A stretch of 64,000 bases of DNA from Natronomonas marina (GTDB lineage: Archaea; Halobacteriota; Halobacteria; Halobacteriales; Haloarculaceae). Numbering within the stretch: the stretch's first letter is position 1; each line of letters begins with the position of its first letter. The DNA lies in NCBI RefSeq assembly GCF_024298905.1, contig NZ_CP101154.1:1922001-1986000 (forward strand), given 5' to 3'. Below are positions 42,723 to 48,546 of this stretch, in pieces. Under the pieces are notes generated by a model, which had not been told where the DNA came from, made no database searches, and saw nothing but the letters and a program-made list of their open reading frames with translations. A program made the translations under genes and the position numbers.

Positions 42723-43052
42723 ATGGGAGTCCGACCACCGCAGCAGGACGACGGCGACGACATAGACACCATCGCCTTCGGCATCGCGGCCCTCGACGAG
42801 CATCTGGACCGGGACGAGATCGTCTTCCCGACGACGGCCTCGGCCCTCGTCGACCGTCTCGACGACCCCGCGATTCCCTACGACGCCAAGGGCAACGAGA
42901 TGTCGCTGTCGGCGGCGCTGGAGGAAACCCACGCCGACGAGTTCGAGACCAGACAGGACCTGATGAACGCGCTGCACCCCGTCTTCGAGGCCAGGCGCGA
43001 CCGCGCGAACAACAGCATCGTCGGACAGCTCCGCTCGCTTTTGCCCTTCTAG
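42723..43052 (+). CDS. Small conserved haloarchaeal protein (DUF5789-like)
   Basis: A 109-residue acidic helical protein (TIAFGIAALDEHLDRDEIVFPTTASALVDRL, MSLSAALEETHADEFETRQDLMNALHPVFEARRDR). It ends QLRSLLPF and overlaps the convergent aglJ gene by four bases. DUF5789 is my best family guess; function unknown. Confidence 0.65.
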   Translation: MGVRPPQQDDGDDIDTIAFGIAALDEHLDRDEIVFPTTASALVDRLDDPAIPYDAKGNEMSLSAALEETHADEFETRQDLMNALHPVFEARRDRANNSIVGQLRSLLPF

Positions 43053-43984
43053 TCCTCGAACTCCCGGAGTCGGTCGGACAGCTCCTCCAGGCGGCGCGTC
43101 TGCTCGCGGTTGACCGAGACGATGATGTCCGAGAGCACGCCGAACATGAACAGCTGCATCGACAGCAGGATGACGAAGACGCCGAGCAGGGCGATGACCT
43201 CGTGGGAGATGCCGTTGATAACGTAGTCGTAGACGACGTAGCTGCCGAGGCCGAGCCCCAGCAGGGTGCCGACGGCCGCGACGAAGCCGAAGTAGAAGAT
43301 TGGGTTGTTCGTCTTCGTGAGCGTGTACAGCGTCAGGATGATCCGGCCGCCGTCCTTCAGCGGGTGGAGGTTCGTCTCCGAACCGCCCGGCCGCCGCTCG
43401 TAGCGGATGGGGACGACCTCGGTGGCGACGCCGTTGCGGACGCACTCGACGGCCAGTTCCGTCTCGATGCCGAACCCCTCGGCGTCCAGCTGGAACCGCT
43501 CGAAGGACTCGCGGGTGAACGCCCGGTACCCCGAGAGGATGTCCTCCATGTCCCGGCCGTGGACGGCCGCGAACAGGCGGTTGATGATCCGGTTGCCGAC
43601 GGTGTTCAGCCGGGTCATCGCGCCCTCCTCCATGTCGGCAAAGCGGTTGCCGACGACGTGGTCCGCCCGCCCCTCGAACAGCGGTTCCAGCATCGCGCCG
43701 GCGTCCTCGGGGCGGTAGGTGCCGTCGCCGTCGGCCATCAGGACGTACTCCCGGTCGATGCTTGCGATCCCCTCCCGGACCGCCTGGCCCTTCCCCGACC
43801 CCGACTGGGTGATGACCCGGGCGCCGTGTTCGCGTGCGATGTCCCGCGTGCCGTCCGTCGAGTGGCCGTCGACGACCAGGACGTGCTCGAAGCCCGCCTC
43901 GCGGAAGCCGTCGACCACCTCGCCGATGGTCTCAGCCTCTTCGAGGGTCGGCAGGAGTACACAGACGTCCGAGCGGTCGGGCAT
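43049..43984 (-). CDS. aglJ: Dolichyl-phosphate hexosyltransferase AglJ
   Basis: A 311-residue GT2 glycosyltransferase with C-terminal membrane helices. CVLLPTLEEAETIGEVVDGF and VLVVDGHSTDGT form the nucleotide-sugar site, LMADGDGTY is the DxD-type metal motif, and FYFGFVAAVGTLLGLGLGSYVVYDYVI plus VIALLGVFVILLSMQLFMFGVL are two membrane segments. AglJ adds the first hexose of the N-glycan to dolichol phosphate in haloarchaea. Its start faces aglB about 120 bases away, a standard divergent pair. Confidence 0.92.
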   Translation of the reverse strand: MPDRSDVCVLLPTLEEAETIGEVVDGFREAGFEHVLVVDGHSTDGTRDIAREHGARVITQSGSGKGQAVREGIASIDREYVLMADGDGTYRPEDAGAMLEPLFEGRADHVVGNRFADMEEGAMTRLNTVGNRIINRLFAAVHGRDMEDILSGYRAFTRESFERFQLDAEGFGIETELAVECVRNGVATEVVPIRYERRPGGSETNLHPLKDGGRIILTLYTLTKTNNPIFYFGFVAAVGTLLGLGLGSYVVYDYVINGISHEVIALLGVFVILLSMQLFMFGVLSDIIVSVNREQTRRLEELSDRLREFED

Positions 43985-44072
43985 TGGCGGTGCCTGCGGC
44001 ACCGAGCGACAAAAAGACTGAGCTTTCGCGGTCGGCGGTTCGCCGCCCCCGTTTCGACGACCAATGGAAAAG

Positions 44073-44104: not shown

Positions 44105-47002
44105 ATGAGTCAGCGGTGGGATCAGGTCGAGGAGCGACTCGACGACTACGAGTCGCAGCTCGACTCCGTATACCGACTGTACCACATCCCCGTTCTCGCA
44201 GCCCTGATGCTCTTCATGCTGTGGATCCGGGTGCGACACTACGGGCGGATGATCGGCGAGGGCGGCGAGCCGCTCTACCGCGGGAACGACCCCTACTACC
44301 ACCGCCGGACGACCGACTACGTCATCCAGAACTACCCGTTCAACATGCCCTACGAGGTCTGGAGCGGGTTCGACACCGGCACCCAGGTCGGCCAGTTCGG
44401 TACCATCTTCGACCAGATCGTGGCGACGGTCGCGCTCGTTGTCGGCCTCGGATCGCCCTCGCAGTCGACGGTCACGCTGGTCACCGTCCTGACGCCGCCG
44501 GTCATCGCGGTCCTGTGTGTCCCGCCGATGTACTACGTCGGCAAGCGCCTCGGCGGGCGCCTCGGCGGTATCATCGGCGTCCTCGTGCTCGCGCTCACGC
44601 CCGGACAGTTCCTCTCCCGGAGCGTCGCCGGCGTCTACGACCACCACATCGCCGAGGTGCTGGCGACGCTTCTCGTGCTGTCGATCGGCATGACCATGCT
44701 CACCGTCGCCCAGCGGGAAAAGCCCATCTACGAGTTCGTCGAGACCCGGGAGTTGGGCCTGCTGAAGGAGCCGGTCGCCTGGGGTGCCGCCCTCGGCGTC
44801 GCGCTCACGCTGACGATGCTCGTGTGGCCGCCCGCGGTGTTCCTCCTCGGCATCTACGCCATCTTCCTGTTTTTCCACCTCTCCGTGGAGTTCGTCCGCG
44901 GCCACAGTCCCGATCACGTCGTCATCCCGTCGGTGGTCGCGGCGCTGGTCGCCGCCGTCCTCCTGCTCCCGTTCCTGACGGCGTTCTCGCTGGAGACGAC
45001 CGAGCTATCGCTGCTACAGCCGCTGCTGGCAGTTCTGGTCGCCGGCGGCGCACTCTTCATGGCGGCCGTCGCACGGCTCTGGGAGAACCGCGACCTCCCG
45101 CGGAACGCCTACCCGATCGGCGTCGCCGGGATCGGTGCCATCGCGGCCGCCGTCCTCGCCGTCGTCGCGCCCGACACGTTCGGCTTCCTCCTCCGGCAGG
45201 TCGAACGGGTCGCCGGTCTCGGCTCGACCGACACCGCAGCCACCGTCGGCGAGGCCCAGGCGCTCGACAACCCCGTCCAGTTCTTCTTCACGAGCTACGG
45301 GCTGGCGTTCTACACCGCCATGATCGGCGTCCTCGTTGTGGCGGTGCGTGCAGTCTTCGCCCAACGTCCCCGCGCCGAACAGCTCCTGGTCGCCACGTTC
45401 ACGGCGCTTATGGTGATCTTCACCATGACGCAGTTGCGGTTCGACTACTACCTCGCTATCGGCGTCGCCGCGGGCAACGCATACCTCGTCGGGCAGGTGT
45501 TCTCCTTCATCGACCTCGACGATGTTCGGGCGGACGTCACGAAAGTCGAGCCGTACCAGGTGCTCATCGTCGTCGCCATCCTGTTCGTCGTCGCCGGGCC
45601 GCTCGTGGCCACTGCGGCGCCGATGCGTGCGTCCGACAGCGCGACGAACCCCGGCGAGTACGAGGACTGGCAGGGCAGCCTCGAGTGGCTCTCCGAGGAG
45701 ACACCCGACGTCGGCGAGTACGGCGGTAGCGGTCCTCGAGACCTGGCGTACTACGGCAGCTACGGGCCAACGGACGACTTCGAGTACACGGACGGCGAGT
45801 ACGGCGTCATGGCGTGGTGGGACTACGGCCACTACATCACCTACGGCGGCGAGCGGATCCCGGTCGCCAACCCCTTCCAGCAGCACGCCGATCAGGCCGC
45901 CGACTTCCTGCTGGCGGGCAACGAGACCGAGGCCAACGACATTCTCGCCGAGGACAGCGGCGAGGGCGAGGGAACGAGGTACGTCATGGTCGACTACCAG
46001 CTCGGCTACGCTGGGACCACGAAGTACAACGCTCCGACGGCCTTCGAGACGCGCCACGGGCTCAACACCAGCGACCTCGGCCTGTCGGTTGCGAGCCCCC
46101 GGGCGCTCCAGCGGGGACAGTACGTCCCGCTGTGGGGGATTCACACCCAGCGCGCCTACGAGAGCATGCGGGTCCGGCTCTACCAGTTCCACGGCAGCGC
46201 CCGCGAACCCGCGAGCTTCGTCAGTCGATTCCGGCGGGGTCCGGGAGGGATCCCGGTACCGCCGGAGGACGGCGCCCCGATCCAGCAGTTCGACAGCCCC
46301 GAGCAGGCCCGCGAGGCCGCCCAGAGCGACCCCACCGCGATACACGGCGGGCTGCTCGGACAGCCCGGCGAGCGGGTCGGCGCGCTCGAACACTACCGGC
46401 TCGTCCACGCCAGCGAGCAGGCACGGCCGTCGCCGCTGTACAGCAACCTCCGGGTGCAGGATCCGCCCGTCGAGTCCGAGGTCAAGACCTTCGAGCGCGT
46501 CGAGGGCGCGACGATAGAGGGAACCGGCCCCGCCAACACGGAGGTCGAGGCATCCGTCACGATGGAGATCCCGACCACGGATCAGACGTTCACCTACCGG
46601 CAGTTCGCACGGACCGACGACCAGGGCAACTTCGAGATGACGGTGCCGTACTCGACGACGGGCTACGACGAGTACGGCACCGAGGCCGGCTACACGAACG
46701 TCAGCGTCCGGGCCAACAGCAGCTACCGGTTCCTCGCGCTGGCGGACAACGGCTCGCGGATCTTCGTCGGCGGGGCCGACGTGACCGAGGGGCAGGTCCT
46801 CGGCGAGAACGACACCGTCACGCAGGTCGAGTTGCAGGAACAGACCACCTCGGACAACGAGACGGCGGGCGACGAGACGACGAACGACGCGACGAACGGT
46901 ACCGCCACGAGCGGTAACGAGACGAGCAGCGACGCCGGTGGTGGGACGAACGCGACGGCCACGGCGACCCCACAGCAGCAGCGCGGCGTCAGGGCGTCCT
47001 GA
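44105..47002 (+). CDS. aglB: Archaeal oligosaccharyltransferase AglB
   Basis: A 965-residue STT3 homologue. The N-terminal half has about 12-13 membrane helices; DDF-type acidic motifs include PLYRGNDPYYHRRTTDY in the first external loop. The catalytic WWDYG is at residues 571-575, and the soluble C-terminal domain ends in a Thr/Asn-rich tail (TTSDNETAGDETTNDATNGT) rich in sequons. It transfers the lipid-linked glycan to Asn of S-layer and other exported proteins. The DUF368 gene follows with no gap, so the two share a transcript. Confidence 0.96.
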   Translation: MSQRWDQVEERLDDYESQLDSVYRLYHIPVLAALMLFMLWIRVRHYGRMIGEGGEPLYRGNDPYYHRRTTDYVIQNYPFNMPYEVWSGFDTGTQVGQFGTIFDQIVATVALVVGLGSPSQSTVTLVTVLTPPVIAVLCVPPMYYVGKRLGGRLGGIIGVLVLALTPGQFLSRSVAGVYDHHIAEVLATLLVLSIGMTMLTVAQREKPIYEFVETRELGLLKEPVAWGAALGVALTLTMLVWPPAVFLLGIYAIFLFFHLSVEFVRGHSPDHVVIPSVVAALVAAVLLLPFLTAFSLETTELSLLQPLLAVLVAGGALFMAAVARLWENRDLPRNAYPIGVAGIGAIAAAVLAVVAPDTFGFLLRQVERVAGLGSTDTAATVGEAQALDNPVQFFFTSYGLAFYTAMIGVLVVAVRAVFAQRPRAEQLLVATFTALMVIFTMTQLRFDYYLAIGVAAGNAYLVGQVFSFIDLDDVRADVTKVEPYQVLIVVAILFVVAGPLVATAAPMRASDSATNPGEYEDWQGSLEWLSEETPDVGEYGGSGPRDLAYYGSYGPTDDFEYTDGEYGVMAWWDYGHYITYGGERIPVANPFQQHADQAADFLLAGNETEANDILAEDSGEGEGTRYVMVDYQLGYAGTTKYNAPTAFETRHGLNTSDLGLSVASPRALQRGQYVPLWGIHTQRAYESMRVRLYQFHGSAREPASFVSRFRRGPGGIPVPPEDGAPIQQFDSPEQAREAAQSDPTAIHGGLLGQPGERVGALEHYRLVHASEQARPSPLYSNLRVQDPPVESEVKTFERVEGATIEGTGPANTEVEASVTMEIPTTDQTFTYRQFARTDDQGNFEMTVPYSTTGYDEYGTEAGYTNVSVRANSSYRFLALADNGSRIFVGGADVTEGQVLGENDTVTQVELQEQTTSDNETAGDETTNDATNGTATSGNETSSDAGGGTNATATATPQQQRGVRAS

Positions 47003-47950
47003 ATGTCCGACTCCGTCGGCGTCCGGGGGTGGCTCGTCGTCTACCTCAAGGGCGCCTGCATGGGGGCGGCCGACACCGTGCCGGGCGTCTCCGGCGGCAC
47101 CATCGCGGTCATCGTCGGCGTCTACGAGCAGCTCATAACCGCGCTCACCTCCGTCGATCCGCGGGTGGTCCGACACCTCCTCTCGCTTCACACGACCGAC
47201 GGACGGGCCGCCCTCGCCGAGGACCTCCTGCGGATGGACGTACCCTTCCTGCTCGTACTCGGGGCGGGCGTGCTGTCGGCGGCGGCGACGATAGCGACGG
47301 CGATGAACGTCGCCGTCACCGAGTACCCCGCCCCGACCTACGCGTTCTTCTTTGGGCTCATCGCAGCCTCGGCGGTCGTGCTGTACCGGTACGTCGACGC
47401 GACGACGCCCCGGCGGGCGATCGTCGCCGCCGTCGGGTTCGTCGTGGCGTTCGTGGTCACGGACCCCTCGCTATCGGGGCCGACCTCCTCGTCGACGCCG
47501 CTGGTGCTGTTCGTCGCCGGCGCAATCGCCATCTCGGCGATGGTGCTACCCGGCATCTCCGGGTCGTTCCTGCTGCTGGTGATGGGCCAGTACGAGACGG
47601 TCACCGAGATTCCGAGCGACGTCGTGAACGGCCTCCTCGCGGCCGTCGGCGGTGACACCGCGTCGCTCGCCGAGGCGCTGGTGCCGTTCGGGGCGTTCAT
47701 GGCCGGCGCGCTGGTCGGCGTCTTCTCGATCGCCTACGCGGTGCGGGCGGCCCTGCAACGCTATCGGGAGGCGACGCTCGTCTTCCTCGTGAGTCTCATG
47801 GTCGGCGCGCTCCGGCTGCCGGTCTTCGAGGTGCGGACGAACGTCGAGGGGTCGCCCGCGGTGGTGGCGGCCGTCGTCGCCGTTCCCGTCGTCGTCGGCG
47901 CCGGCCTCGTCTTCGTCCTCGACAACTACACCGACGACCTGGAGTACTGA
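47003..47950 (+). CDS. DUF368 membrane protein, candidate polyprenyl-phosphate translocase
   Basis: A 315-residue polytopic membrane protein with the family motif GACMGAADTVPGVSGGTIAVIVGVYE near the N-terminus and a second inverted-repeat motif VLPGISGSFLLLVMGQYE. Bacterial DUF368 (PopT) recycles undecaprenyl phosphate across the membrane. It starts directly at the base after the aglB stop, so it is translationally coupled to the oligosaccharyltransferase, which leaves behind dolichyl (pyro)phosphate on the outer face. Returning that carrier is an attractive, unproven role. Confidence 0.88.
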   Translation: MSDSVGVRGWLVVYLKGACMGAADTVPGVSGGTIAVIVGVYEQLITALTSVDPRVVRHLLSLHTTDGRAALAEDLLRMDVPFLLVLGAGVLSAAATIATAMNVAVTEYPAPTYAFFFGLIAASAVVLYRYVDATTPRRAIVAAVGFVVAFVVTDPSLSGPTSSSTPLVLFVAGAIAISAMVLPGISGSFLLLVMGQYETVTEIPSDVVNGLLAAVGGDTASLAEALVPFGAFMAGALVGVFSIAYAVRAALQRYREATLVFLVSLMVGALRLPVFEVRTNVEGSPAVVAAVVAVPVVVGAGLVFVLDNYTDDLEY

Positions 47951-47952
47951 CG

Positions 47953-48546
47953 ATGGGCGACAGGCCGACCCTGACGACGCTGTGTCTCTTCGCCGTGGTG
48001 TTCGCGGTCCAGGCGTTCGACGGGGCGCTCGGCGTCGACCCGGCGGTGTTCGTCCTGCGGTGGCCGCTGACGAAACATCCCTCGGCCACCCTGGTGAGCG
48101 TCTACGCCCACGGGAGCCTCCAGCACCTGGCGGCCAACACGCTCGCGCTGGCCGTCGTCGGCCCGCTCGTCGCCTACGTGACCTCGCCGATACGGTTCCA
48201 CCTGTTCTTCGTCGTCTCGGGTGCGCTCTCGGGCATCGCGCAGGTGCTCGTGACGGTCCCGTTCGGGGGCGCGGGCGTCCTCGGCGGGAGCGGCGCCATC
48301 TTCGCGCTGATGGGGTACTTCCTGGTCGGCAACCGGGCCTCGACGCGCGCGCTGTCGTGGCTCCCGCTCGGGACCGCGGGGTCGCTGTTGCTATTCGGCG
48401 TGCTGGCGGCCGTCGTGACGCTTGCGACGGCCGCACCCGGCGTCGCCCTGGTGGCGCACTTCACCGGCTTCCTGGTCGGCGCCGTCGCCGGTCGGGGTCG
48501 GCTGTTGCACGTCGGGTCCGATGCGTCGCCGCAGGCCGACGCGTGA
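47953..48546 (+). CDS. Rhomboid-family intramembrane serine protease
   Basis: A 197-residue membrane protein with about six helices. The catalytic Ser113 lies in LGGSGAIFALMGY and His169 in LVAHFTGFLVGAV, and the early HGSLQHLAANTLAL motif matches the rhomboid H-x5-N region. It cuts other membrane proteins within the bilayer. It follows DUF368 by two bases, so it is the third gene of the aglB unit. Confidence 0.9.
   Translation: MGDRPTLTTLCLFAVVFAVQAFDGALGVDPAVFVLRWPLTKHPSATLVSVYAHGSLQHLAANTLALAVVGPLVAYVTSPIRFHLFFVVSGALSGIAQVLVTVPFGGAGVLGGSGAIFALMGYFLVGNRASTRALSWLPLGTAGSLLLFGVLAAVVTLATAAPGVALVAHFTGFLVGAVAGRGRLLHVGSDASPQADA

Follow-up and report, generated by a model that had tools for sequence, protein, structure and literature searches.

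How does the lipid carrier used for archaeal N-glycosylation return to the cytoplasmic face of the membrane once its glycan has been transferred? We know of no assigned archaeal step for this return of spent dolichyl phosphate, and a gene pair of the haloarchaeon Natronomonas marina raises the question whether a DUF368 membrane protein produced together with the oligosaccharyltransferase AglB could perform it. Within the window, by which we mean the whole stretch of 64,000 nucleotides that was analysed, aglB (positions 44105-47002, plus strand, 965 amino acids) is followed on the same strand by a gene at 47003-47950 for a DUF368/PopT-family membrane protein of 315 amino acids, a candidate dolichyl-phosphate re-import transporter. 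The first-pass annotation had placed the DUF368 start codon directly behind the aglB stop codon, and this proved correct: in the junction sequence gcgtccTGAATGtccgac, the aglB TGA at 47000-47002 is followed by the DUF368 ATG at 47003-47005, and the resulting TGAATG with its 0-nt gap is a candidate site for translational coupling. The ATG at 47003 is also the sole start codon located sufficiently 5' of the conserved PGVSGG motif of the protein, and this DUF368 gene is the only copy in the genome.

The assignment of AglB is based on Pfam matches to STT3, AglB_core-like and AglB_L1, on a score of 820 bits against the curated NCBIfam model TIGR04154 (cut-off 450) and on the WWDxG motif, which is present in the translation as WWDYG. 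On the other side of aglB, at a distance of about 100 bp, lies aglJ (43049-44002, minus strand), coding for a dolichyl-phosphate glycosyltransferase with 455.4 bits against the TIGR04182 equivalog (cut-off 325). The earlier suggestion that aglJ flanks aglB therefore holds for the window, where a true AglJ is found; however, the gene is divergently oriented and flanks aglB in only 3 of the 100 loci with a linked aglB-DUF368 pair described below, so that this neighbour carries little weight, and aglJ was ruled out as a conserved partner of the pair. Downstream, a rhomboid protease-like gene (47953-48546, plus strand; PF01694, E 6e-17) starts 2 nt after the DUF368 stop codon as the third gene of a putative operon, and aglB, DUF368 and the rhomboid gene likely form one transcription unit. 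The rhomboid gene adjoins the pair in the genus of the window only and was likewise ruled out as a conserved partner. Its position may nevertheless have a meaning, given that S-layer N-glycosylation is altered in a mutant of the Haloferax volcanii rhomboid RhoII (PMC4343526).

The DUF368 protein of the window matches PF04018, a family described in Pfam as undecaprenyl phosphate translocase-like, over residues 20-272 with 205.8 bits (gathering score 26, E 1e-60). It carries the duplicated PG[VI]SG motif, with one copy in each half (PGVSGG at residues 27-32 and PGISGS at residues 183-188), and residues P27, G28, S30 and G31 as well as P183, G184, S186 and G187 are invariant in 63 archaeal sequences. 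In a confident AF2 model (pLDDT 93.5, pTM 0.87), helix breaks are seen at both motifs; no solved structure resembling the protein was found by sequence or fold. With the PopT proteins VCA0040 of V. cholerae and SAOUHSC_00846 of S. aureus, it has in common the PF04018 domain, the duplicated motif and, judging from the model, probably a polytopic helical fold. In contrast to these proteins, it scores below the cut-off of 400 bits for both NCBIfam PopT equivalogs (183.2 bits for NF052564 and 83.1 bits for NF052563), its gene is linked to that of an oligosaccharyltransferase, and dolichyl phosphate is expected to take the place of undecaprenyl phosphate as its carrier. Judged by these profile scores, it is a relative of the PopT equivalogs that lies outside the same equivalog. 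Residues 89-152 match an undecaprenyl-diphosphate phosphatase profile with 19 bits, which is far below the cut-off and may hint at a distant kinship.

To follow the gene pair beyond the window, 145 haloarchaeal genomes from 58 genera and 10 families were searched for PF04018 and the AglB core, each of which was detected in 144 genomes. Genes were counted as linked when DUF368 was located within 6 kb 3' of aglB on the same strand. Conservation of the adjacency had been put forward as a check on the proposed function, and the pair is not confined to the genome of the window but kept in 100 of the 145 genomes, 41 of the 58 genera and 9 of the 10 families, which exceeds chance. The direct pair is present, for instance, in Haloferax mucosum, Haloferax sp. 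Q22, Halorubrum coriense, Halorhabdus amylolytica, Haladaptatus salinisoli, Halolamina salifodinae, Natrinema ejinorense and Halostagnicola sp. A56. Of 90 loci in which the distance could be measured, 64 have the DUF368 start between -17 and +6 nt from the aglB stop, a fraction that is somewhat favourable since the candidate start codon nearest the aglB stop was chosen, and 85 have it no further than 160 nt away. Stop and start codons overlap in relatives as TAATG, TGATG or ATGA, with TAATG or TGATG in many loci. In the remaining five loci the two genes are 1.5-2.5 kb apart, and in several of these the intervening gene codes for an AglM-like UDP-glucose dehydrogenase. Fusions of AglB and DUF368 were not noticed among the loci read. 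The 45 unlinked haloarchaeal genomes mostly carry a second DUF368 subfamily.

Could the two genes be unrelated in function and simply have stayed neighbours by descent? Every directly linked locus is haloarchaeal and thus of common ancestry, and the direct pair is absent from independent lineages, as such passive synteny would predict. The genes on either side of the pair are not stably kept. At least one of the three genes 3' of DUF368 is common to 7.6% of between-family genus pairs, and at least one of the three genes 5' of aglB to 6.0% when a lumped glycosyltransferase cluster is excluded and 30% when it is included, values that are approximate since the codon-position-GC gene picker used to call neighbours misses some genes, among them the rhomboid gene of the window. 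Compared with these flanking genes, the aglB-DUF368 pair outlasts its surroundings. As other neighbours are common to just 6-8% of between-family genus pairs whereas the pair is kept in 41 of 58 genera, and overlapping stop and start codons are frequent, the pair seems to be more than passive synteny, which we consider very unlikely.

The unlinked genomes are best understood from the DUF368 phylogeny, for which one maximum-likelihood tree and one larger quick tree were built. Linked copies were found throughout the haloarchaeal part of the trees, and one clade of 42 sequences (support 98-99), here called type II, consists of copies none of which is linked to aglB. The 108 copies outside this clade, including the copy of the window, were designated type I, and 100 of them are aglB-linked. 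Among the 145 genomes, 101 carry exclusively type I, 33 exclusively type II and 7 the two types together; three more, in which the matches were weaker, were left unplaced and one, G021, has no DUF368 protein. In an AglB tree calculated with a fast method, ten unlinked AglB proteins are scattered among the linked ones, indicating that linkage is ancestral in the haloarchaea and was lost repeatedly. In genus g15, some DUF368 genes still have an AglM-like gene beside them and an unchanged set of genes 3' of them, but aglB has relocated. The AglM-like gene adjoins DUF368 at five loci (L122 and L143 of genus g15, L093, L097 and L026), where it is found either between DUF368 and aglB or where aglB has relocated. 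Type II copies sit outside glycosylation clusters, and their replacement of type I in 33 genomes suggests that the two types can substitute for each other. No type II copy was found in the sampled genomes of the family that contains H. mucosum, and the H. volcanii homologue studied by Sit et al. is therefore probably of type I.

What could such a protein do for AglB? Bacterial DUF368 proteins re-internalise undecaprenyl phosphate: their loss leads to more undecaprenyl phosphate on the outer face of the membrane, and cells that express them are protected from a drug with affinity for this lipid (PMC9876793). The H. volcanii homologue partly complements a V. cholerae DUF368 mutant, and the same study raised dolichol phosphate translocation as relevant (Sit et al. 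2022, PMC9876793). The idea of carrier recycling in the first-pass annotation is hence not wholly new; its specific element, the link between DUF368 and aglB, was not found in the accessible literature. The donors from which Haloferax AglB takes its glycans are dolichol phosphate-linked, with dolichol-monophosphate as the carrier (PMC3871713), and some bacterial pathways release Und-P directly (PMC12826051). From the chemistry of the dolichol phosphate-linked donors we infer that transfer by AglB should leave dolichyl phosphate directly, so that a phosphatase step would be unneeded, and by analogy with the bacterial proteins dolichyl phosphate would be the kind of molecule that the DUF368 family moves.

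We propose, with a probability of roughly 70%, that DUF368 is a PopT-type transporter that re-imports dolichyl phosphate for AglB and is coexpressed with aglB. According to this model, AglB hands the glycan to the protein and leaves dolichyl phosphate on the outer face of the membrane, from where DUF368 would bring the spent carrier back to the inner face. The two genes would be co-transcribed and, in the genome of the window and many others, translationally coupled, and in this way recycling capacity would be produced alongside the enzyme that generates the spent carrier. We infer all four elements, namely the dolichyl phosphate substrate, the direction of movement, co-transcription and translational coupling. 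We lean only slightly towards a more far-reaching version, in which DUF368 is an AglB-dedicated dolichyl-phosphate re-importer that has been coupled since the early haloarchaeal radiation, an unlinked paralogue repeatedly took over its role, and the protein would be the first assigned carrier-recycling step of archaeal N-glycosylation.

Adjacency to AglB would fit equally well with a transporter working in the opposite direction, that is, a flippase that moves glycan-charged dolichyl phosphate outward and feeds AglB. However, the bacterial relatives that have been studied experimentally act on carrier phosphate in its free form, and more carrier is found on the outer face when they are lost (PMC9876793). 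Furthermore, Haloferax already has AglR and Agl15 as candidates for this step (PMC3871713), and proteins of 480 amino acids that, judged from their sequence, resemble this type recur in several aglB loci (cluster c6). We thus regard an outward flippase as highly improbable. A different question is whether DUF368 serves AglB in particular or acts as a general housekeeping transporter for all dolichyl-phosphate pathways, such as a second N-glycosylation route, dolichyl-P-mannose and exopolysaccharide synthesis, with aglB merely representing the largest consumer. Dolichyl phosphate is indeed also used by the Haloferax AglD/AglS and Agl5-15 routes (PMC3871713), type II copies are encoded outside glycosylation clusters and substitute for type I in the 33 genomes mentioned above, and one genome, G118, keeps DUF368 although matches to the AglB core and STT3 are absent. 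On the other hand, the linkage of 100 of the 108 type I copies to aglB is tighter than a pure housekeeping function needs, and we consider this explanation unlikely, if less so than an outward flippase.

The proposal of a re-importer is strengthened by the ancestral and often overlapping adjacency, but an exclusive role of DUF368 is not supported in view of the unlinked haloarchaea, of G118, of the other archaea in which DUF368 lies away from STT3 and of the distribution of another family. DedA/UptA flippases, the other family known for carrier flipping and for which the same job has been proposed in bacteria, belong to a different Pfam family (PF09335) and were found in 145 of 145 haloarchaeal genomes. 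As DedA proteins are universal in the class, they may be redundant with DUF368; in the genome of the window, the one copy listed is located approximately 430 kb from aglB. The G118 genome is listed as 100% complete and its DUF368 protein (locus L153) is of type II; N-glycosylation by way of AglB has apparently been lost there. The reverse situation is seen in G021, a small haloarchaeal genome with AglB (locus L166) and DedA, which lacks DUF368.

Across a mixed draw of 158 genomes of the phylum, DUF368 was detected in 47, 25 of which are haloarchaeal. Given its absence from the other 111, archaeal N-glycosylation does not seem to depend on DUF368 in general. STT3 was not found beside DUF368 in 21 non-haloarchaeal loci read, methanogen-like genomes included, and in three genomes of family f29 it is 13-15 kb away with housekeeping genes intervening. 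An isolated and weak case of STT3 linkage is an STT3-like ORF two genes 5' of DUF368 on a Thermoplasmata contig; there, genes for the STT3-like protein, AMMECR1, an amidohydrolase, DUF368 and an inositol phosphatase are encoded on one strand (L237:2-6637). In seven non-haloarchaeal loci (L014, L180, L182, L184, L185, L187 and L188), DUF368 has a fixed neighbourhood, with a divergently oriented sugar-nucleotide epimerase gene in most of them and, 3' of DUF368, a family that matches no Pfam entry (FIGIDHGTTAIRF...). Based on this distribution, DUF368 probably transports carrier phosphate, with its production having become tied to that of AglB in haloarchaea, and would not be obligate for N-glycosylation everywhere.

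The agl cluster of H. volcanii, which extends from aglJ to aglM, belongs to the same pathway, and aglJ and aglB are also present in the window. Whereas the H. volcanii cluster ends at aglM in its published description (PMC5867893), aglB of the window is followed by DUF368, and some genomes of the Haloferax group have a gene for an AglM-like UDP-glucose dehydrogenase positioned between aglB and DUF368. Neither a description of DUF368 as an agl gene nor its linkage to aglB was found in the accessible literature; the study by Roney and Rudner 2022, the abstract of which reportedly mentions syntenic analyses, is outside this coverage, and priority is uncertain. The DUF368 family as such is already known, and it is the AglB-coupled archaeal subfamily that appears to be new and to have a testable role.

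Taken together, since haloarchaea are genetically tractable and conserve the aglB-DUF368 pair, the question of carrier return is reduced to a one-gene test, and our survey identifies the paralogues that would have to be removed alongside, namely type II DUF368 and DedA. Haloarchaea also provide a peptidoglycan-free physiological setting for the DUF368 family, without confounding effects on undecaprenyl phosphate. We therefore regard the DUF368 gene as a strong candidate, and one open to experimental test, for the recycling step that is still missing from archaeal protein glycosylation.
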